A stretch of DNA of 64,000 bases. It comes from Rhodopseudomonas pseudopalustris (GTDB lineage: Bacteria > Pseudomonadota > Alphaproteobacteria > Rhizobiales > Xanthobacteraceae). The translations under genes and the position numbers were made by a program. Positions 39,082 through 55,050 of this stretch are shown piece by piece. The stretch lies in NCBI RefSeq assembly GCF_900110435.1, contig NZ_FODT01000001.1, forward strand, positions 1 to 64,000, written 5' to 3'. The notes under the pieces were generated by a model. It saw only the letters and a program-made list of their open reading frames with translations. It was not told the DNA's origin and ran no database searches. Position 1 is the stretch's first letter, and each line of letters starts with the position of its first letter.

Positions 39082-40761
<1,680 letters not shown>

Positions 40762-44391: not shown

Positions 44392-46056
<1,665 letters not shown>

Positions 46057-46320: not shown

Positions 46321-48072
46321 GTGTCCAATATCAGTTCCACGCTCACGACCGTTTGGCGGATTGCTGTTCCGTACTTCAGATCCGAAGACGGACGGATGGG
46401 GCGCACACTATTGGCGGCCGTAGTTGTCATCGAACTCGCGGTCGTCGGCCTGACGGTGTTGTTCAACCGCTGGAACAACGTGTTCTACAACGCGCTGCAG
46501 GAGCGCGACTACGACGTCTTCGCCTATCAGCTCGCCTATTTCTGCGTCCTGGCCGCGATCTGGATCGCGCTCAAGGTCTATCAGCTCTATCTGAACCAGT
46601 GGCTGCAGATCCGCTGGCGGCGCTGGATGACCGAGCGCTATCTCGGCGACTGGCTTTACGAGTCTAACCACTACCAGATGCAGTTGCTCGGCGACGCCGC
46701 CGACAACCCTGACCAGCGTATCGCCGAAGACACCCAGCTGTTCGTCGAGCGCACGCTGTTGCTGGGCGTCGGGCTGTTGAATGCGGTGGTCACGCTGGCA
46801 TCGTTCGTCGTCATTCTGTGGGGGCTTTCCAACGAAGCGCCGTTGCATGTGTTCGGCCAGGACATTCCGATTCCGGGCTATCTGGTCTGGGGCGCGCTGA
46901 TCTACGCGACGATCGGCACCGCGCTGACGCACTGGATCGGCTCGCCGCTCGCCGATCTGAACTTTCGGCAGCAACGGTTCGAGGCCGACTTCCGCTTCAA
47001 CCTGGTTCGCGCGCGTGAAAACTCCGAGCAGATCGCGCTGCTGCGCGGCGAAAGCGCCGAGCGCGGCAAGCTGTCCTCGCGTTTCGGGCTGGTGGCCGAG
47101 AACTTCATGCGGATCATGACGCGCACCAAGCGGTTGACCGCATTCACCGCGAGCTACTCGCAGGCCTCGATCATCTTTCCCTACATCCTGGTGGCGCCAG
47201 CCTATTTCGCCCAGAAGGTCCAGCTCGGTGGCCTGATGCAGACTGCGTCGGCTTTCAACAGCGTCCAGGATTCGCTGTCGTTCTTCATCTCGGCTTACCG
47301 CACGCTGGCGGAATGGCAATCGGTGGTGACGCGGCTCGACGGCTTCGAGGCCTCGATCCGGAACGCCAACGCGCTGCGGGCCAATCCAGGCGTCACCCGC
47401 GTTTCCGCTCCGAGCGGCGATGCCATCAAACTCGACGACCTGAGCCTGACGCTTCCCGCCGGACAAAGGCTGATGAGCGCCGACGATTTCCAGATCCGCA
47501 GTAAGGAACGCACTCTGATCGTCGGCCCGTCGGGCTCCGGCAAGTCGACGCTGTTCCGCGCCATCGCGGGGATCTGGCCATTCGGCTCAGGCTCGATCGC
47601 GATCCCGCCCGGCGCGAGCGTGATGATGCTGCCGCAGCGGCCATACTTCCCGGTCGGCGAGTTGCACGCCGCGATCGCGTATCCCTCGGAGGCCGAGGCA
47701 TTCACAAGCGCGCAGGTCGCCGAGGTGCTGAAAGAAGTCGGGCTGCCTGCCCTGGCCGACCGACTCGCGGAGCACGGCCACTGGAACCGGACGCTGTCGC
47801 TCGGCGAGCAGCAGCGGCTCGGCGTCGCGCGGGCGCTGCTACACCGGCCGCAATACCTGTTCCTTGACGAAGCCACCGCCTCGCTCGACGAGCCGTCGGA
47901 GGCCGCGCTGTACCAGTTGCTCGATCACAGGCTGCCGGACACCACCATCGTCTCGATCGGCCATCGCTCGACGCTCAACGCATTCCACGACCGCGATGCG
48001 ATCCTGACACGCTCCGGTGAGGGCTTTGCGTTGCAGGACAAGACAGCGGCAGCCGAGCCTGCGGCGGGCTGA
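46321..48072 (+). CDS. SbmA/YddA-type ABC transporter, fused permease and ATPase
   Basis: A 583-residue half-transporter: N-terminal membrane domain of the ABC_membrane_2 type with about 6 helices (LLAAVVVIELAVVGLTVLFN, AYFCVLAAIWIALKVYQLYL; WRRWMTERYLGDWL motif) and C-terminal ATPase with Walker A GPSGSGKST (K408), signature LSLGEQQRLG (from 492) and LFLDEATASLD. Related proteins include SbmA/BacA-like peptide or cobalamin transporters and peroxisomal ABCD proteins. Works as a homodimer by inference. GTG start with GGAGAAG upstream. Confidence 0.9.
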   Translation: MSNISSTLTTVWRIAVPYFRSEDGRMGRTLLAAVVVIELAVVGLTVLFNRWNNVFYNALQERDYDVFAYQLAYFCVLAAIWIALKVYQLYLNQWLQIRWRRWMTERYLGDWLYESNHYQMQLLGDAADNPDQRIAEDTQLFVERTLLLGVGLLNAVVTLASFVVILWGLSNEAPLHVFGQDIPIPGYLVWGALIYATIGTALTHWIGSPLADLNFRQQRFEADFRFNLVRARENSEQIALLRGESAERGKLSSRFGLVAENFMRIMTRTKRLTAFTASYSQASIIFPYILVAPAYFAQKVQLGGLMQTASAFNSVQDSLSFFISAYRTLAEWQSVVTRLDGFEASIRNANALRANPGVTRVSAPSGDAIKLDDLSLTLPAGQRLMSADDFQIRSKERTLIVGPSGSGKSTLFRAIAGIWPFGSGSIAIPPGASVMMLPQRPYFPVGELHAAIAYPSEAEAFTSAQVAEVLKEVGLPALADRLAEHGHWNRTLSLGEQQRLGVARALLHRPQYLFLDEATASLDEPSEAALYQLLDHRLPDTTIVSIGHRSTLNAFHDRDAILTRSGEGFALQDKTAAAEPAAG

Positions 48073-48434: not shown

Positions 48435-49433
48435 TTACTTGATGTTGCTCTGCAGCGTCACGTCAGCCGACAGCTTGGCGATGAAGGTCGCACCGCACCA
48501 CTTCGAGCCGAAACCGCCGGGATTGATCGGGGAGACGTCGCCGGTCAGAGTTGCGGTGTAGTCGCTGGTGAAAGCGTTGCAGTCCGCCTTGGACAGATCG
48601 GTGTCCGAATAGCGCAGGTCAAGCGTGAACACCCTGTAGTTGAACCCAACGCCCACGTTCCAGGTGTTGTAGTCCTTGTACTTAATGCCGTTCGCGAAAA
48701 TGGTGCCCGGAAGACCGTAGAAGGAATCCGAGGTTCCAAGCCACTGGCGGCCGAATTCACCCGACACGTACATTCCGACGCCGCTCGGCCCGAAGACCGT
48801 GGTCGGAGCCGTGAACTTAGCAGTCAACGACGCGTAGTTGCCCCAGGCGCCGCTGTTCAGGAAGCTCGGGGTATAATACTCGTTGGCGCCGATCGTGAAC
48901 ATGTCGTTCACGGTCCAGTTCACCTTGGCGTAGCCCTCGTAGAAGCTGAGGTCTTTCTTGAGAACGTTGCCGTTGGCCAAAGAGATCGAGTTGATGTCGC
49001 CGGGGCACAGCGCGCCGGCGCCGACGCCCGCCGTATCGACGCACTTTCCGCCCGGATACAGGTAGCCGTAAACACCGAAGTCGAACGCGAAGGCGCCGAA
49101 GGTCGGGCGGATACCGCCGTAGATATCGACTTCAGCCGCGGCGCGATTGGCGAACGAGATGCTCGACCACGAGGTACCGACGTAGAGCTGCAGATCCTTG
49201 GTCACGTTGTAACGCGGTTCAAAATACGCGTTGACCGACGGATTGTTGTTCGACTGGGAAACGCCGCGGAACACGTAGTTGCTCATGACCGCCGCACCGA
49301 AGGCGATGTCCCAGGGGTCGAACGCCACGATCGGCGGAGCCTTGGAGTAAACCTTCGCGGGCAGGTCGGCAGCGGAAGCCGAAGTCACGCCGACGGCGAG
49401 TACGGCCGCGACTGAGATAATTGTCTTCTTCAT
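48435..49433 (-). CDS. TIGR02001-type outer-membrane beta-barrel protein
   Basis: A 332-residue protein with signal peptide MKKTIISVAAVLAVGVTSASAAD. The mature sequence alternates aromatic-rich beta strands (DIAFGAAVMSNYVFRGVSQS, AYFEPRYNVTKDLQLYVGTS, FDFGVYGYLYPGG) and matches the TIGR02001 pattern, in which 'SNYVFRGVSQS' is typical. Four cysteines in loops may form disulfides. Likely a porin-like or surface protein of unknown function. An in-frame Met four residues upstream is also possible. Confidence 0.82.
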   Translation of the reverse strand: MKKTIISVAAVLAVGVTSASAADLPAKVYSKAPPIVAFDPWDIAFGAAVMSNYVFRGVSQSNNNPSVNAYFEPRYNVTKDLQLYVGTSWSSISFANRAAAEVDIYGGIRPTFGAFAFDFGVYGYLYPGGKCVDTAGVGAGALCPGDINSISLANGNVLKKDLSFYEGYAKVNWTVNDMFTIGANEYYTPSFLNSGAWGNYASLTAKFTAPTTVFGPSGVGMYVSGEFGRQWLGTSDSFYGLPGTIFANGIKYKDYNTWNVGVGFNYRVFTLDLRYSDTDLSKADCNAFTSDYTATLTGDVSPINPGGFGSKWCGATFIAKLSADVTLQSNIK

Positions 49434-49890
49434 AAGGATCCCCATCGATGTGAAGCTAGCCCGACCGAAGTCATAAAGACGCGATGTCGACCTGCTTAGT
49501 AACTCCCGCACAATCTGCTTCTAAGCCGGGGAACCGTGAAGCAAAAAACACATGCAGCTGCCAGTTTTTTGGGCAATTCCGCACTTCCATTGCCGAGTAG
49601 TTTTGAAGTGTGGCAATTTGACCACGATTTTGCGAGCGGTTCTGATTGGTACTCACGATACCTGGTTGTCCGTACAACACTTTTGGCCGATGGAGGGCGG
49701 GCGACAAATAGCCTGCCATCCGGCTCGCGGCGACTGATTCGCGTCAGCCGAACGCCCGCTACGACGGCGGGCTGACAGCCCCGGCGAGCGGCTCGGCCGC
49801 CATCCATCAACGCCCACAACGAGCAAGGGCCACGGTGATGACCGTGGCCCTACTGATCAATTCGAACTACCCGCCCGGCAGGCGAGGTCC
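49434..49890. other. Long 5' region of the outer-membrane protein gene
   Basis: About 450 bases. The part at 49500-49690 is the most AT-rich stretch around and probably holds the promoter and a long untranslated leader for the outer-membrane protein. Short plus-strand frames here have no recognisable product. A hairpin (49826-49851) closes the H1-like gene. Confidence 0.45.
49826..49851 (-). terminator. Hairpin downstream of the H1-like gene
   Basis: Perfect 11-bp stem AGGGCCACGGT/ACCGTGGCCCT with loop GATG, 39 bases past the stop. The minus-strand sequence after it (TGCTCGTTG) is not a strong U-tract, so termination may be inefficient or Rho-aided. Confidence 0.6.
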
Positions 49891-50913
49891 TCAGACCGAA
49901 TCCGGCGTCCTGGGATGCGGATGGTGATGGTCGTGGTCACCATCGACATCCGCCTCCTCGTCCGATGGCGCCGGGGATTCGACGGAAGCGTTGTCCTCAT
50001 GGGAGGCTTCGGCCGTGGCCGGAAACGGCTCGGCGGGAGCCTCGTCATCGGAATCCTCGGAAGCCGCCTCGGGCGGCGGCGACCAGGATCGCTCCGGTTC
50101 GGATGCCTCGACTTCGGTCGACCCGGCTTCGGACGAGTCACTCTCTGACGAGAGAGGCTCGGACGAGTCGGGCTCGGACGAGTCGGTTTCGGACGAGTCG
50201 GTTTCGGTCGACTCAAGCTGAGACGACGGCGGAGAGAACTCGGTCTCCTCAGGATCAGCGGGCTCGGGCGGCAAGGCGGCGGCCGGCCTTTTGGCTCGTG
50301 GCTTGCGCGGCTTGGCCGGCTTCGTCGGCGCAGGGGCTTCCGCGGGCGCGGCGGCGTCGATCAGTCTAAGTATTTCGCTCGGGGAATCGGCCTTTGGCGC
50401 TGCCTTACCTGCAACCGCCTTCTTCGGCGGAGCCTTCCTGGGGGGTGTCTTTGCTGTCGTGGCCGCTTTCAGCGCAGTCTTTTTTGCGGTCCGCAGCGCG
50501 GCGGTCTTGGCGGCTTTCTTCGCAACTTTCCTGGCGGCTTTTTTGGCAGGCGCTTTTTTCGCGGTGGCCTTCTTCGCCGAAGTTTTCTTCGCGGGTGACT
50601 TCTTTGCCGGTGACTTCTTTGCCGGTGACTTGCCGGCCTTCTTACTGGCTGTCTTGACTGTCTTCTTCTTGTTCTTGGTCGAAGGCTTCTTGACCGAACT
50701 GTTCTTCGAACCGGACTTCACCGCCTTCTTGGCGGATTTCTTCCCGGCTTTTTTCCCGGACGCTTTGGCGGATGTCTTGGCGTCCTTCTTGGCGGCCTTC
50801 TTGGCCTTTTTCTCCGTCAGCAGGAGCTTGGCCTTCTTCGACTGCTCGGCCTTCTTCGACTGCTTGCCCTTCTTGTCCGCCTTGTTCTTTTTGGACTTCT
50901 TGTTTTTCGCCAT
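49891..50913 (-). CDS. Histone H1-like protein with acidic Ser-rich and His-rich tail
   Basis: A 340-residue low-complexity protein in two opposite halves. Residues 1-175 are extremely basic, with AKK/PAKK repeats (GKSPAKKSPAKKSPAKKTSA) like eukaryotic H1 tails and Pseudomonas AlgP. After a short ordinary stretch (SPSEILRLIDAAAPAEAPAP) comes a basic Pro/Ala linker. The last ~125 residues are strongly acidic with SSE/TDSSE repeats and finish DGDHDHHHPHP, a possible metal-binding end. The N-terminus would bind DNA or RNA. The tail may self-mask it. A strong AGGAGG site precedes the ATG. The gene lies 71 bases behind glcF on the same strand. Confidence 0.85.
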   Translation of the reverse strand: MAKNKKSKKNKADKKGKQSKKAEQSKKAKLLLTEKKAKKAAKKDAKTSAKASGKKAGKKSAKKAVKSGSKNSSVKKPSTKNKKKTVKTASKKAGKSPAKKSPAKKSPAKKTSAKKATAKKAPAKKAARKVAKKAAKTAALRTAKKTALKAATTAKTPPRKAPPKKAVAGKAAPKADSPSEILRLIDAAAPAEAPAPTKPAKPRKPRAKRPAAALPPEPADPEETEFSPPSSQLESTETDSSETDSSEPDSSEPLSSESDSSEAGSTEVEASEPERSWSPPPEAASEDSDDEAPAEPFPATAEASHEDNASVESPAPSDEEADVDGDHDHHHPHPRTPDSV

Positions 50914-50984
50914 CGTCGTCCTCCTGTTGTGCGGATCGCCCGGGTGCGGCGGTCACGCAATCCGACAGCAGGCCTGTAGCGCGG

Positions 50985-52298
50985 TCAGCTGATCGCCGGC
51001 CGGGGACCACCTGTCGCCCAATCGAGAAGCTCAATCGTGTGCACTACAGGGACGTCCGTTCCGCTGGCGATCTGCACCATGCAGCCGATATTGCCAGCGG
51101 CAATCATGTCCGGCTTGACGGAAGCGATGTTGGCGACTTTGCGGTCGCGCAATCTGGTCGCGATGTCAGGCTGGAGAATGTTGTACGTGCCCGCCGAACC
51201 ACAACACAAATGACTCTCCGGGATATCTTTCACCACGAATCCGGACTTGGAAAGCAATTCTTTGGGGAGCTGCGTGACTTTCTGACCGTGCTGCAGCGAA
51301 CATGCGGAGTGATACGCGACGACGACATCGCCATGCGGCTGCGGCGGCGACAGCTCAAGGGTGCCGATATATTCGCTGATATCCTTTGCGAGCGCCGAGA
51401 CCTTCGCCGCCGATGCCGCGAATTCCGGATCCTCGCGCAACATGTAACCATAGTCCTTGATGACGGTGCCGCAGCCTGAGGTCGTCACCAGAATCGCGTC
51501 GAGGCCGCCGCGATCGATCTCGCGCAGCCACGCCTTGATGTTGGTACGGGCGTATTCGAGGGTCCGCGTGTCACGCCCCAGATGATGGATCAGGGCGCCG
51601 CAGCAGGCTTCATCCGCCGCGAGCACGACCTCGATGCCGTGGCGTGTCAGCAAATTGATGGCGGCGCGGTTGATACGCGGCGCCAGAACCTGTTGGGCGC
51701 AGCCGTGCAGCAGTGCGACGCGACCGCGCCTGGGTCCGACCGCCGGGAACATGGTTCCAGAGGCCGGGCCAGGCTCCGGCAAATGCTTCGGGGCGAGCGC
51801 CAGCATCGCCTTGATCCGGCTGAGGAACGTCGGATGGGCGAGATCGTGCGATCCTGGCAGCAGCGCCGCCACCGGCCGCAACAGCTGCGCCATCCACATG
51901 CTGAAACGGAACATGCCGGGATGCGGCATCAGCCACGACAACAGCTCGCGCACGAGGCGATCGGGCAGCGGCCTCGTATAGTCCCTCTCGATCCGGACGC
52001 GCGCCTGATCGACCAGATGCATGTAGTTCACGCCCGACGGACAAGTGGTCATGCAGGCGAGGCACGACAGGCAGCGATCGATATGCTTGACCACGTCCGC
52101 CGTCGGCGGCGCGTTGTTTTCCAGCATCTCCTTGATCAGGTAAATGCGGCCGCGCGGGCTGTCCAGTTCATCGCCAAGCAGCACATAGGTCGGGCACGTC
52201 GCCGTGCAGAAACCGCAATGCACGCAGGCGCGCAGGATCTTGTCGGCCTCGGCGATATCCGGATCGGCGAGCTGGGCGAGACTGAATTCAGTTTTCAT
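50985..52298 (-). CDS. glcF: Glycolate oxidase iron-sulfur subunit GlcF
   Basis: A 437-residue protein: two 4Fe-4S motifs near the N-terminus (ACVHCGFCTATCP, Cys25/28/31/35; RCLSCLACMTTCP, Cys76/79/82/86) and two C-terminal CCG domains (ADEACCGAL, SHLCCGSAGTYN). It passes electrons from GlcD/E to the membrane. ATG at 52298 overlaps the glcE stop (ATGA). Last glc gene of the operon, followed by the H1-like gene. Confidence 0.96.
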   Translation of the reverse strand: MKTEFSLAQLADPDIAEADKILRACVHCGFCTATCPTYVLLGDELDSPRGRIYLIKEMLENNAPPTADVVKHIDRCLSCLACMTTCPSGVNYMHLVDQARVRIERDYTRPLPDRLVRELLSWLMPHPGMFRFSMWMAQLLRPVAALLPGSHDLAHPTFLSRIKAMLALAPKHLPEPGPASGTMFPAVGPRRGRVALLHGCAQQVLAPRINRAAINLLTRHGIEVVLAADEACCGALIHHLGRDTRTLEYARTNIKAWLREIDRGGLDAILVTTSGCGTVIKDYGYMLREDPEFAASAAKVSALAKDISEYIGTLELSPPQPHGDVVVAYHSACSLQHGQKVTQLPKELLSKSGFVVKDIPESHLCCGSAGTYNILQPDIATRLRDRKVANIASVKPDMIAAGNIGCMVQIASGTDVPVVHTIELLDWATGGPRPAIS

Positions 52299-53536
52299 AC
52301 TGCGGGTCCTCGCGACAACCGGCCGCGATTGAGAATGTTCCTGGGATCGAAACTGTGTTTGACCCGCAGCCCGAGCGCGGCGAGCCCGCTCGGCTGCGGC
52401 TGGAACACGTCGACGCTCGCGCGAACCTCGTCGCTGGCGCGGATCAGCGACGCGTGGCCGCCGATCTTGTCGACGCGCTGTCGCAACGCCTTGGCGTGGC
52501 CATCCGCGGCCGGCGGCAACGCCGCCCAGATCAATCCGCCGCCCCAGTCGTAGATCACCTCGCCGCCGCTCTCGCGCTGCAGGGCCAGGCCGAATGCCCC
52601 ACCGGACGCCGGCGGGCAGACGATCCGCCACACTGGCCACAGCGCCCGCGGGCCCGAGGCGGCGAACGGCTCGACGTCGCGGACGGCGCGCCACAGATCG
52701 GCCGAGGCCTCGTCCTCGATCAGGTCCGCGGTGCCGAAACTCTTCAGCGCCTCGCGCAGCGACTGGGCGCGATGGCTCGCCGACGAGGTGATCCCCTCGA
52801 GCCGCAGCAGCGTCAGCGCCTGATCCAGAGAAGCGATGTCGGCAAGCGCGCCGCCGGTGGTGCGCAACGCCGAGCCCGGCAGATGCGCCGCGCCGCTGAC
52901 GTCGTAGGGCGAGCCCAGCGCCTGGGTCATCGCCCTGTTGGCGGTGACGTCGTCGAGCCCGCGCAGCACCAGCGTGCGCTCGCTCTCCGGCCGCGGCGTC
53001 ACCTTCAGTGTTACCTCGGTCATCACCGCGAGCGTTCCCCACGAGCCCGCCAGCAGCTTGCAGAGGTCGTAGCCGGTGACGTTCTTCACCACCTTGCCGC
53101 CGGCCTTGAAGCTCTCGCCGAAACCGGACACCGCGTGCGCGCCGAGCAGATGGTCGCGCGCGCCGCCCGACTTGATCCGCCGCGGACCTGCGAGGCCCGC
53201 GGCGATCATGCCGCCGATGGTGCCCTCGGTCTCCGGCGTGCCGAGCAGCAACGACGTGTTGATCGGCTCGAAGGCGAATTGCTGGTTCCTGGAATCGATC
53301 AGCGACAGCACGTCGGCGACCGGGGCGCCGGCCTGCACGGTGATGATCAGTTCGTTCGGCTCGTAGGCGGTGACGGCATTGAGCGCCGACAGTTCCAGCA
53401 CCGCATTGGTCGCCATCGGCTGGCCGACCGGCCGCTTGGTGCCGTGACCAATGATCTCGAGCGGCTGCTCATTGGCGATCGCGGCGCGCACCGCGTCCTC
53501 GACCTCCTGTGCGTCGCGTACTTTCAACGTGTCCAC
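52295..53536 (-). CDS. glcE: Glycolate oxidase FAD-binding subunit GlcE
   Basis: A 413-residue FAD-linked oxidase subunit with the FAD-binding type-4 fold: TVQAGAPVADVLSLID, GTIGGMIAAGLAGPRRIKSG, GGKVVKNVTGYDLCKLLAGS. It forms the GlcDEF complex oxidising glycolate to glyoxylate. GTG start; begins 20 bases after glcD and overlaps glcF by four bases. Confidence 0.95.
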   Translation of the reverse strand: MDTLKVRDAQEVEDAVRAAIANEQPLEIIGHGTKRPVGQPMATNAVLELSALNAVTAYEPNELIITVQAGAPVADVLSLIDSRNQQFAFEPINTSLLLGTPETEGTIGGMIAAGLAGPRRIKSGGARDHLLGAHAVSGFGESFKAGGKVVKNVTGYDLCKLLAGSWGTLAVMTEVTLKVTPRPESERTLVLRGLDDVTANRAMTQALGSPYDVSGAAHLPGSALRTTGGALADIASLDQALTLLRLEGITSSASHRAQSLREALKSFGTADLIEDEASADLWRAVRDVEPFAASGPRALWPVWRIVCPPASGGAFGLALQRESGGEVIYDWGGGLIWAALPPAADGHAKALRQRVDKIGGHASLIRASDEVRASVDVFQPQPSGLAALGLRVKHSFDPRNILNRGRLSRGPAV

Positions 53537-53556: not shown

Positions 53557-55050
53557 TCAGAAACGCGGGATATCCGGAAACGCCGTCTTGCCGCCATGGA
53601 CGTGCATCCGGCCGAGTTCGGCGCAGCGATGCAGCGTCGGGAACACCTTGCCGGGATTGAGCAGGCCTTCGGAATCGAATGCGCATTTCAACCGCTGCTG
53701 CTGATTGAGATCGATGTCGGAGAACATCTCCGGCATCAGATCGCGCTTCTCGATCCCGACGCCATGCTCGCCGGTCAGCACGCCGCCGACCTCGACGCAC
53801 AGCCGCAGAATGTCGGCCCCGAACGCCTCGGCCTTGTCCATCTCGCCGGGCTGATTGGCGTCGTAGAGGATCAGCGGATGCAGATTGCCGTCGCCGGCGT
53901 GGAACACATTGGCGACGCGCAGCCCGTAGTGCTCCGACATCTCGGTCATCCGCCGCAACACCTGCGGCAACTTCGCGCGCGGAATGGTGCCGTCCATGCA
54001 CAGATAGTCCGGCGAAATCCGGCCGACCGCCGGGAACGCCGCCTTGCGGCCGGACCAGAACAGCAACCGCTCCTTTTCCGACGTCGAGATCTGGCAGGTG
54101 GTCGAGCCGCAGCCGAGCGCAATCGTCTCGACGCGCGTGATCAGTTCGTCGACCTCGACCTGCGGGCCGTCGAGCTCGATGATCAACAGCGCCTCGACGT
54201 CGAGCGGATAGCCGGCGTGGACGAAGGCTTCGGCGGCGTGGATCGCGGGCTTGTCCATCATCTCCATGCCGCCGGGAATGATGCCGGCGCTGATGATGTC
54301 GGCGACGCATCGGCCGGCGGCCTCGACGTCGGTGAAGCCGACCATCAGCGCCCGCGCGGTCTCCGGCTTGCGCAGGATGCGGACGGTGACCTCCGTGATG
54401 ACGCCGAGCAGGCCCTCGGAGCCGGTGATCACGCCCATCAGATCGTAGCCCGCGCACTCCGCAGCCTTGCCGCCGATCCGCAGGATCTCGCCGGTCATCA
54501 GCACGATCTCGCAGCCGAGCACGTTATTGGTGGTCATGCCGTATTTCAGGCAATGCACGCCGCCGGAATTCTCCGCGATATTGCCGCCGATCGAACAGGC
54601 GATCTGCGACGACGGATCGGGCGCGTAGTAAAAGCCGGCGTGGTCGACTGCCTGGCTGATGGCGAGGTTGGTGACGCCGGGCTCGACCACCACTGCGCGG
54701 TTATCGAAATCAATCTCACGGATGCGCTTGAACTTGCCGAGCCCCAGCAACACGCCGTCGGCGAGCGGCAGAGCGCCGCCCGATAGTGAGGTGCCAGAAC
54801 CGCGCGGCACCACCTTGATGCCGTGCTTGTGGCAGTAGCGAAGAACCTCGGAGACCTGCTGCGTCGTGCCCGGCAACACCACCACCATCGGCGGCTGGCG
54901 ATACGCCATCAGCCCGTCGGACTCATAGGGCTTCATCTCGGCGGCGCTGGAAATGACGCCCTCGCCCGGCACGATCTTGCGCAACGCCGCCACGATCTGG
55001 TCGCGGCGCGCCAGCACGGACTGGTCCGGTTCCGGCATCAATATGGTCAT
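53557..55050 (-). CDS. glcD: Glycolate oxidase catalytic subunit GlcD
   Basis: A 497-residue FAD-dependent oxidase of the expected length: VVPRGSGTSLSGGALPLADG FAD site, CSIGGNIAENSGGVHCLKYG, FHAGDGNLHPLI and VLTGEHGVGIEKRDLM. It converts glycolate to glyoxylate, salvaging phosphoglycolate carbon from the RuBisCO oxygenase reaction in autotrophs. It leads glcDEF, 41 bases downstream of the TetR gene. Confidence 0.97.
   Translation of the reverse strand: MTILMPEPDQSVLARRDQIVAALRKIVPGEGVISSAAEMKPYESDGLMAYRQPPMVVVLPGTTQQVSEVLRYCHKHGIKVVPRGSGTSLSGGALPLADGVLLGLGKFKRIREIDFDNRAVVVEPGVTNLAISQAVDHAGFYYAPDPSSQIACSIGGNIAENSGGVHCLKYGMTTNNVLGCEIVLMTGEILRIGGKAAECAGYDLMGVITGSEGLLGVITEVTVRILRKPETARALMVGFTDVEAAGRCVADIISAGIIPGGMEMMDKPAIHAAEAFVHAGYPLDVEALLIIELDGPQVEVDELITRVETIALGCGSTTCQISTSEKERLLFWSGRKAAFPAVGRISPDYLCMDGTIPRAKLPQVLRRMTEMSEHYGLRVANVFHAGDGNLHPLILYDANQPGEMDKAEAFGADILRLCVEVGGVLTGEHGVGIEKRDLMPEMFSDIDLNQQQRLKCAFDSEGLLNPGKVFPTLHRCAELGRMHVHGGKTAFPDIPRF

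Follow-up and report, generated by a model that had tools for sequence, protein, structure and literature searches.

A putative histone H1-like protein with its own acidic tail, encoded behind the glycolate oxidase genes of Rhodopseudomonas

What would a protein do whose first half is strongly basic and whose second half is acidic, and why is it encoded directly behind the genes for glycolate oxidase? The gene in question lies on the reverse strand of the 64,000-nucleotide stretch of DNA analysed here (the window), where its open reading frame, strand and both ends are confirmed (Table 1). Residues 1-174 hold 65 Lys, 40 Ala and 10 Pro, while residues 216-340 hold 39 Asp/Glu and 26 Ser with no Lys, and the best split, after residue 209, divides the chain into a basic part of +68 and an acidic part of -37, leaving +31 for the whole protein. 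The resulting charge difference of 105 lies above every one of 5000 shuffles of the same charges (mean 34, maximum 51), and kappa is 0.36 versus 0.17 in 50 shuffles, so that the two-part H1-like architecture with an inversion of charge, as proposed by the first-pass annotation, is borne out. Its further claim that the tail neutralises the basic half goes too far, as about half of the basic charge is cancelled. No match above threshold was found for the protein in Pfam, NCBIfam or PDB sequences, the top Pfam match being DUF2208 with an E value of 0.27.

Table 1. Coordinates in the window of the H1-like gene, of the segments and motifs it encodes, and of the neighbouring features.
Feature	Coordinates	Strand	Remarks
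11-bp hairpin, 39 nt past the stop codon	49826..49851	-	without a long T run
H1-like bipartite protein, 340 aa	49891..50913	-	coordinates include the stop codon
Acidic Lys-free tail, residues 216-340, net -37	49894..50268	-	
HDHHHPHP end, residues 327-334	49912..49935	-	sub-clade only
Conserved tail block PAEPFP...HEDNxxVES, residues 293-313	49975..50037	-	dN/dS 0.25 (residues 277-315)
15-bp tandem array, 6.6 copies	50113..50211	-	encodes the DSSE repeats
Hinge, residues 175-215, net +4	50269..50391	-	includes PRKPR
PRKPR, residues 202-206	50296..50310	-	in the hinge; locally highest pLDDT
Basic AKK half, residues 1-174, net +64	50392..50913	-	
Ribosome-binding site AGGAGG	50920..50925	-	6 nt upstream of the ATG
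glcF, glycolate oxidase iron-sulfur subunit	50985..52298	-	NF008434, 457 bits, cut-off 333
glcE-like	52295..53536	-	top match GlcE, 268.6 bits, below the cut-off of 284
glcD-like	53557..55050	-	top match GlcD, 690 bits, below the cut-off of 897

The genes are ordered glcD-like, glcE-like, glcF and then the H1-like frame, which starts 71 bp after the glcF stop codon. Within 25 nt upstream of the start, AGGAGG is found in 96 of 126 unique orthologues (9 of the 13 closest, defined below) and GGAG in 123, and this ribosome-binding site, together with the operon position, suggests that the protein is expressed. Proteomic evidence for it was not found among the matches listed in the literature searched, and the main text of an R. 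palustris proteomics paper (PMC13289028) is without the words 'histone', 'glycolate' or 'glcF'; nor did the matches listed from the open-licence PMC literature include a paper on the H1-like protein or on a histone-like neighbour of glcF. A consensus sigma-70 scan of 49700-51100 returned no promoter, though one may lie there. The hairpin past the stop codon is a possible transcript end: the 76-nt stretch that contains it (49815-49890) folds with an MFE of -37.8 kcal/mol (z -3.86), and the consensus scan did not pick it up. Just past the H1-like gene lie a TorF-family putative porin (48438-49436, reverse strand) and an SbmA/BacA-like ABC transporter (46321-48069, forward strand). An L-lactate permease family protein near glcDEF (44395-46056, reverse strand) is a candidate that might import glycolate or lactate. 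At a greater distance, a Cpn60/TCP-1 family protein (39109-40758, forward strand) falls within a stretch, 36-42 kb, where the AT skew is raised to 0.17-0.29 per 2 kb.

Similarity searches lose power with sequences of low complexity, and one made with the H1-like protein gave matches in 10 of 61 genomes, its own included; orthologues were therefore assigned by position behind glcF, not by similarity. The nine nearest named contigs are all Rhodopseudomonas, with GlcF identities from 92% down to 83%, and glcF was present in 15 of the 16 Rhodopseudomonas genomes searched, the one without it being an 800-contig assembly. A Lys/Arg-rich frame stands behind glcF at 148 of 154 loci examined, a sample that is not random, as it comes from two collections with some genomes counted twice, includes the best 80 of 407 named loci and has 40 loci hand-picked to span genera. 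The six exceptions comprise a contig end (L070), a fusion to malate synthase (L143) and four loci at which no such frame was found behind glcF (L146, L155, L156 and L157). A further 16 loci yielded eight free AKK genes, seven malate synthase fusions and one locus with neither (L175). Dropping identical proteins and three odd ones left 126 orthologues of 84-399 aa. One orthologue (L044), short at 103 aa, has a Leu/Arg/Pro-rich end unlike that of its relatives, probably the result of a frameshift in that genome.

Across the family most proteins at this locus are of the plain AKK type, their C-terminus being nearly neutral, and the acidic tail follows relatedness. In the core of Rhodopseudomonas, by which we mean the 13 orthologues with a GlcF identity of at least 89.5%, the C part carries -23 to -39 and the N part +58 to +68, and in all 13 the charges are more widely separated than in any of 5000 shuffles. 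The charge of the C part is -13 to -33 at 82-89% GlcF identity (n=3), -3 to -13 at 77-82% (n=79), -2 to -6 at 70-77% (n=14) and +1 to -5 below 70% (n=17). Homologues with both halves, the search for which had been suggested at the outset, are thus found, with an acidic tail in all of the core and in all three proteins at 82-89% identity. Within the genus the long tail belongs to the 13 core members of the 15 with glcF, and in the two divergent members outside the core (L028 and L029, GlcF 80%) the tail is short and carries -10. By this gradation the tail may have been built up inside the Rhodopseudomonas lineage, starting from a C-terminus that was short in the ancestor; 72 of the 82 proteins with 77-89% GlcF identity have SW[AST] at that end, typically as PSWATP. 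Over the 126 orthologues the total net charge stands at 39.6 with an SD of 6.7, where 12.2 would be expected if both parts varied independently, and the raw correlation between N and C charge is -0.70. Independent contrasts on the GlcF tree, however, reduce this to r -0.20 (sign-flip p 0.23), by which charge homeostasis as a general rule is rejected; compensation between the two parts is therefore mainly the event of one clade, on which the case for it essentially rests.

Selection on the tail was assessed over six close pairs, one protein belonging to two of them, and the pooled dN/dS is 0.33 for the basic half, 0.31 for the hinge, 0.55 for the DSSE region, 0.34 for the C-end and 0.37 for the whole tail, falling to its lowest value around the conserved block (Table 1). 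Differences in the tail at codon positions 1, 2 and 3 number 118, 96 and 199, and the acidic frame is open and alignable in all 13 core orthologues, which indicates that this is the selected frame and that the tail is under purifying selection. These results bear on the suspicion, raised with the first description, that the acidic half is absent in relatives or arises by a frameshift from a longer basic protein. Read in the +1 frame (49894-50295, reverse strand), the tail is indeed Arg/Pro-rich and basic, and 10 of the 13 core genes have no stop there, as a frameshift would have it; no coding-type third-position pattern was seen in that frame among the core orthologues, whereas differences pile up at the third position of the acidic one. 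As the tail is conserved and selected in its own frame it is not a frameshift product, and on both the codon-position differences and dN/dS we regard that origin as practically excluded.

A second explanation, that simple Lys/Ala and acidic repeats have grown neutrally under little counter-selection and that the charge inversion has no role, is unlikely but draws on real features of the gene. The core proteins range from 300 to 399 aa, several in-frame arrays of 12-18 bp lie within the gene, and the fast-evolving DSSE region owes its repeats to an array found solely in this genome, missing from the other 15 of 16 tailed proteins. Neutral growth is at odds, however, with a tail that is net negative without exception in the core and that evolves under the constraint described above, most of all at residues 277-315. 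Motifs are conserved as well: PRKPR occurs in all 13 core proteins, in 16 of 82 in the next group and in none of 31 more distant ones, [ED]PFP in 12 of the 13, and the MAKxKKSK start and the DNxPVE block are likewise conserved. The same distribution weighs on the idea of a switch sensitive to metal or phosphorylation, for which the serines of the tail and the terminal HDHHHPHP had been adduced. Conservation does not support metal sensing, since a His end (at least 3 His among the final 25 residues) is present in 4 of the 13 core orthologues, nor does it support phosphorylation of the DSSE array as a conserved purpose, the array having been seen in this genome alone among the 16 compared; we hold such a switch to be very unlikely, a judgement to which the simulations below also contribute on either side.

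We propose instead, with a confidence that stays somewhat short of even, that the protein is a disordered H1-like polycation whose acidic tail mimics nucleic acid in cis and thereby damps its own binding. The H1-like protein would probably be co-expressed with the glycolate oxidase genes, and its AKK half would bind nucleic acid, as we infer for DNA from the composition of that half. In the Rhodopseudomonas lineage the short ancestral C-terminus would have lengthened to about 100-130 residues and become a polyanionic tail, alongside a longer basic half, yet with the net charge held near the family value. The tail would fold back on the basic half and compete there with DNA or RNA, lowering non-specific binding and aggregation, and would be displaced wherever nucleic acid is plentiful. 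What we infer in this model is the binding of nucleic acid, autoinhibition in cells and co-transcription with the glycolate oxidase genes. It speaks against masking that L028 and L029 manage with tails of only -10, and that the tail contains a conserved, non-repetitive block for which pure masking of charge has no need.

The model presupposes a flexible chain, and the protein is predicted to be disordered, as AlphaFold with 10 sequences gives a mean pLDDT of 51.3 and a pTM of 0.18, with one low-confidence helix at residues 17-40 and the best confidence around the hinge at residues 191-220 (block means 71-84). A toy Monte Carlo simulation, which knows only charges and excluded volume and consists of short, non-converged runs, was carried out on the free chain (four runs for each of five variants) and with DNA whose phosphates carry half charge (three runs for each of four variants, the scrambled one excepted). 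The radius of gyration of the free wild-type chain is 4.15-5.45 nm, as against 7.2-8.1 nm with an uncharged tail and 6.3-6.7 nm for one scrambled charge order, and 29-35% of the N-half cations lie within 1.2 nm of the tail in the wild type, in comparison with 1-2% and 3-5%, respectively. The N cations in contact with DNA number 6.7-9.7 in the wild type, 10.9-16.0 with the uncharged tail, 9.8-13.2 for the N part alone, the lowest run of which nearly meets the highest of the wild type, and 6.5-7.5 with 13 phosphoserines. Coverage by the tail, again from runs that had not converged, is 0.16-0.27 with DNA (three runs) and 0.29-0.35 without it (four runs). Phosphorylation at 13 sites makes the free chain more extended (Rg 4.7-8.6 nm), with a coverage of 0.21-0.40; coverage is kept or raised in three of the four runs (0.34-0.40), as a phosphorylation switch would like, but in the fourth it drops to 0.21 and the chain is much more stretched out. 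Folding back of the tail with partial masking of the basic half is thus physically reasonable in this model. With a net charge of +31 the masking can only be partial, and of the self-masking first suggested for this protein, the physical plausibility holds in the toy model and full neutralisation does not.

The position behind glcF invites another explanation, in which the protein is an accessory of the glycolate/glyoxylate pathway: the AKK part would be a polycationic tether holding the enzymes of the operon in a metabolon or on a polyanion, be it the nucleoid, polyphosphate or the membrane, with the PAEPFP...DNxPVE block as a docking site. In most of the family members examined the gene keeps its place after glcF, and in deeper relatives the next gene encodes malate synthase A (Pfam MS_N, MS_TIM-barrel and MS_C). 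A polybasic, AKK-like N-terminal extension is carried by malate synthase A at 18 of 21 loci near glcF in family members, or in 10 of 13 genera, six of the 18 belonging to a single genus that was fetched to test the fusion. The extended enzyme occurs in some cases with no separate AKK gene (L143, L147, L148, L169-L174 and L176) and in others together with a free one (L136, L138, L140, L142, L150, L151, L153 and L180); it is without the extension at L156 and L157, and the remaining locus, L177, gave no clear reading. The three extensions that were read to their full length measure 140, 206 and 150 aa, values that hinge on the start codon chosen, here the frame's first Met. Elsewhere in the order, in other families, the extension is present on none of 26 malate synthase A genes, 11 of which lie at loci that also hold a GlcF match; an MS_N match was present in 86 genomes, of which the 30 best-scoring loci were read, and 4 of these were without malate synthase A. 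No paper on a Lys-rich extension of malate synthase was found among the matches listed from the open-licence PMC literature.

As the extension and the free AKK gene occur in the same operon, the AKK unit belongs to the glycolate-malate operon of the family, and the protein of the window reads as its free, tailed form. Free and fused AKK units may be homologous, or may resemble each other only in composition, and any order of events between them is tentative. The conserved tail block would suit a docking role. Against the accessory role it counts that malate synthase A was not found in 9 of 12 genomes searched, that of the window included (it is present in the other three), and the eight further genomes without it, all family members, have a free AKK gene; in those genomes the link to the enzyme is therefore historical. 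The genome of the window does have another MS_N-bearing frame elsewhere, of 738 aa, which from its size we take to be malate synthase G. A shared operon may, moreover, mean mere co-expression, and on balance we judge the accessory role unlikely.

Our preferred model, a polycation damped by its own tail, would make this protein a bacterial example of a polycation that is disordered and has its polyanionic partner built into the same chain. The locus provides a natural series from tail-less proteins on the Bradyrhizobium side to tailed ones in Rhodopseudomonas, all at one conserved position, which allows a direct test of how the segregation of charge affects the binding of nucleic acid. Furthermore, as malate synthase, encoded in the same operon, can bear an AKK-like extension, one may ask what H1-like modules do outside the nucleoid. 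More speculatively, and with rather little confidence, the AKK module may have arisen in the glycolate-to-malate operon of the family, either free or as the N-terminal extension of malate synthase, and in Rhodopseudomonas stayed free and gained its tail; this tailed free form would be a single-chain analogue of the H1-prothymosin pair, and through it the state of the nucleoid or of RNA may be coupled to glycolate (photorespiratory) metabolism.

Among known systems the closest in kind are AlgP/AlgR3, the C-terminus of PhaF and Chlamydia Hc2, with which the protein shares disordered Lys/Ala/Pro-rich repeats, variable length and a presumed binding of nucleic acid. Bordetella BpH1 is a bacterial H1-like protein of the same Lys/Ala/Pro-rich type. 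The low-complexity disordered segment typical of AlgP and Hc2 is present here, as is the variation in length, from 84 to 399 aa with the DSSE array in one of 16. Unlike the protein described here, AlgP and Hc2 are not credited with an acidic half in the passages cited (PMC9239181; PMC2848022), and AlgP begins with a helical domain of 124 residues (PMC9239181) that is absent here; the operon differs as well. The H1-like C-termini of AlgP (net +55) and PhaF (net +35), likewise rich in Lys, Ala and Pro, are tied in that account to the spacing of granules (PMC9239181), from which one might take the present protein for an organiser of storage granules, such as polyphosphate for AlgP or PHA for PhaF, with its basic half on DNA and its tail or tail block on a granule protein; as neither a phasin nor another folded domain was detected by Pfam, and no granule gene is among the neighbours identified in the annotated part of the window, we consider this quite unlikely.

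The mechanism we prefer, autoinhibition by the tail, has its nearest counterpart in Hfq, where the acidic tip of the C-terminal domain is described as a mimic of nucleic acid that autoinhibits (PMC5606850), so that in both cases a disordered acidic tail would compete with nucleic acid for the protein's own basic residues; Hfq, however, is a folded Sm ring, and we liken the mechanism with no claim of homology. Histone H1 with prothymosin alpha also pairs a disordered polycation with a disordered polyanion, as two proteins in the account cited (PMC7661507) and as one chain here. The winged-helix globular domain of linker histone H1 was not found in the protein by Pfam or as a confident AlphaFold fold. 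Myxococcus CarD likewise has adjoining acidic and basic disordered segments, in its HMGA-like domain, but is described with RGRP AT-hooks and a CdnL-like N-terminal domain (PMC8156234), and the H1-like protein has neither RGRP in its sequence nor a match to Pfam CarD_CdnL. Similarity to the Rv3852 family (NF050153) is weak, extends over the Lys/Ala repeats and reaches 17.7 bits against a cut-off of 100, which places the protein outside that family. Judged by its composition, the protein is of the bacterial H1-like kind, with an acidic tail of its own as the addition.
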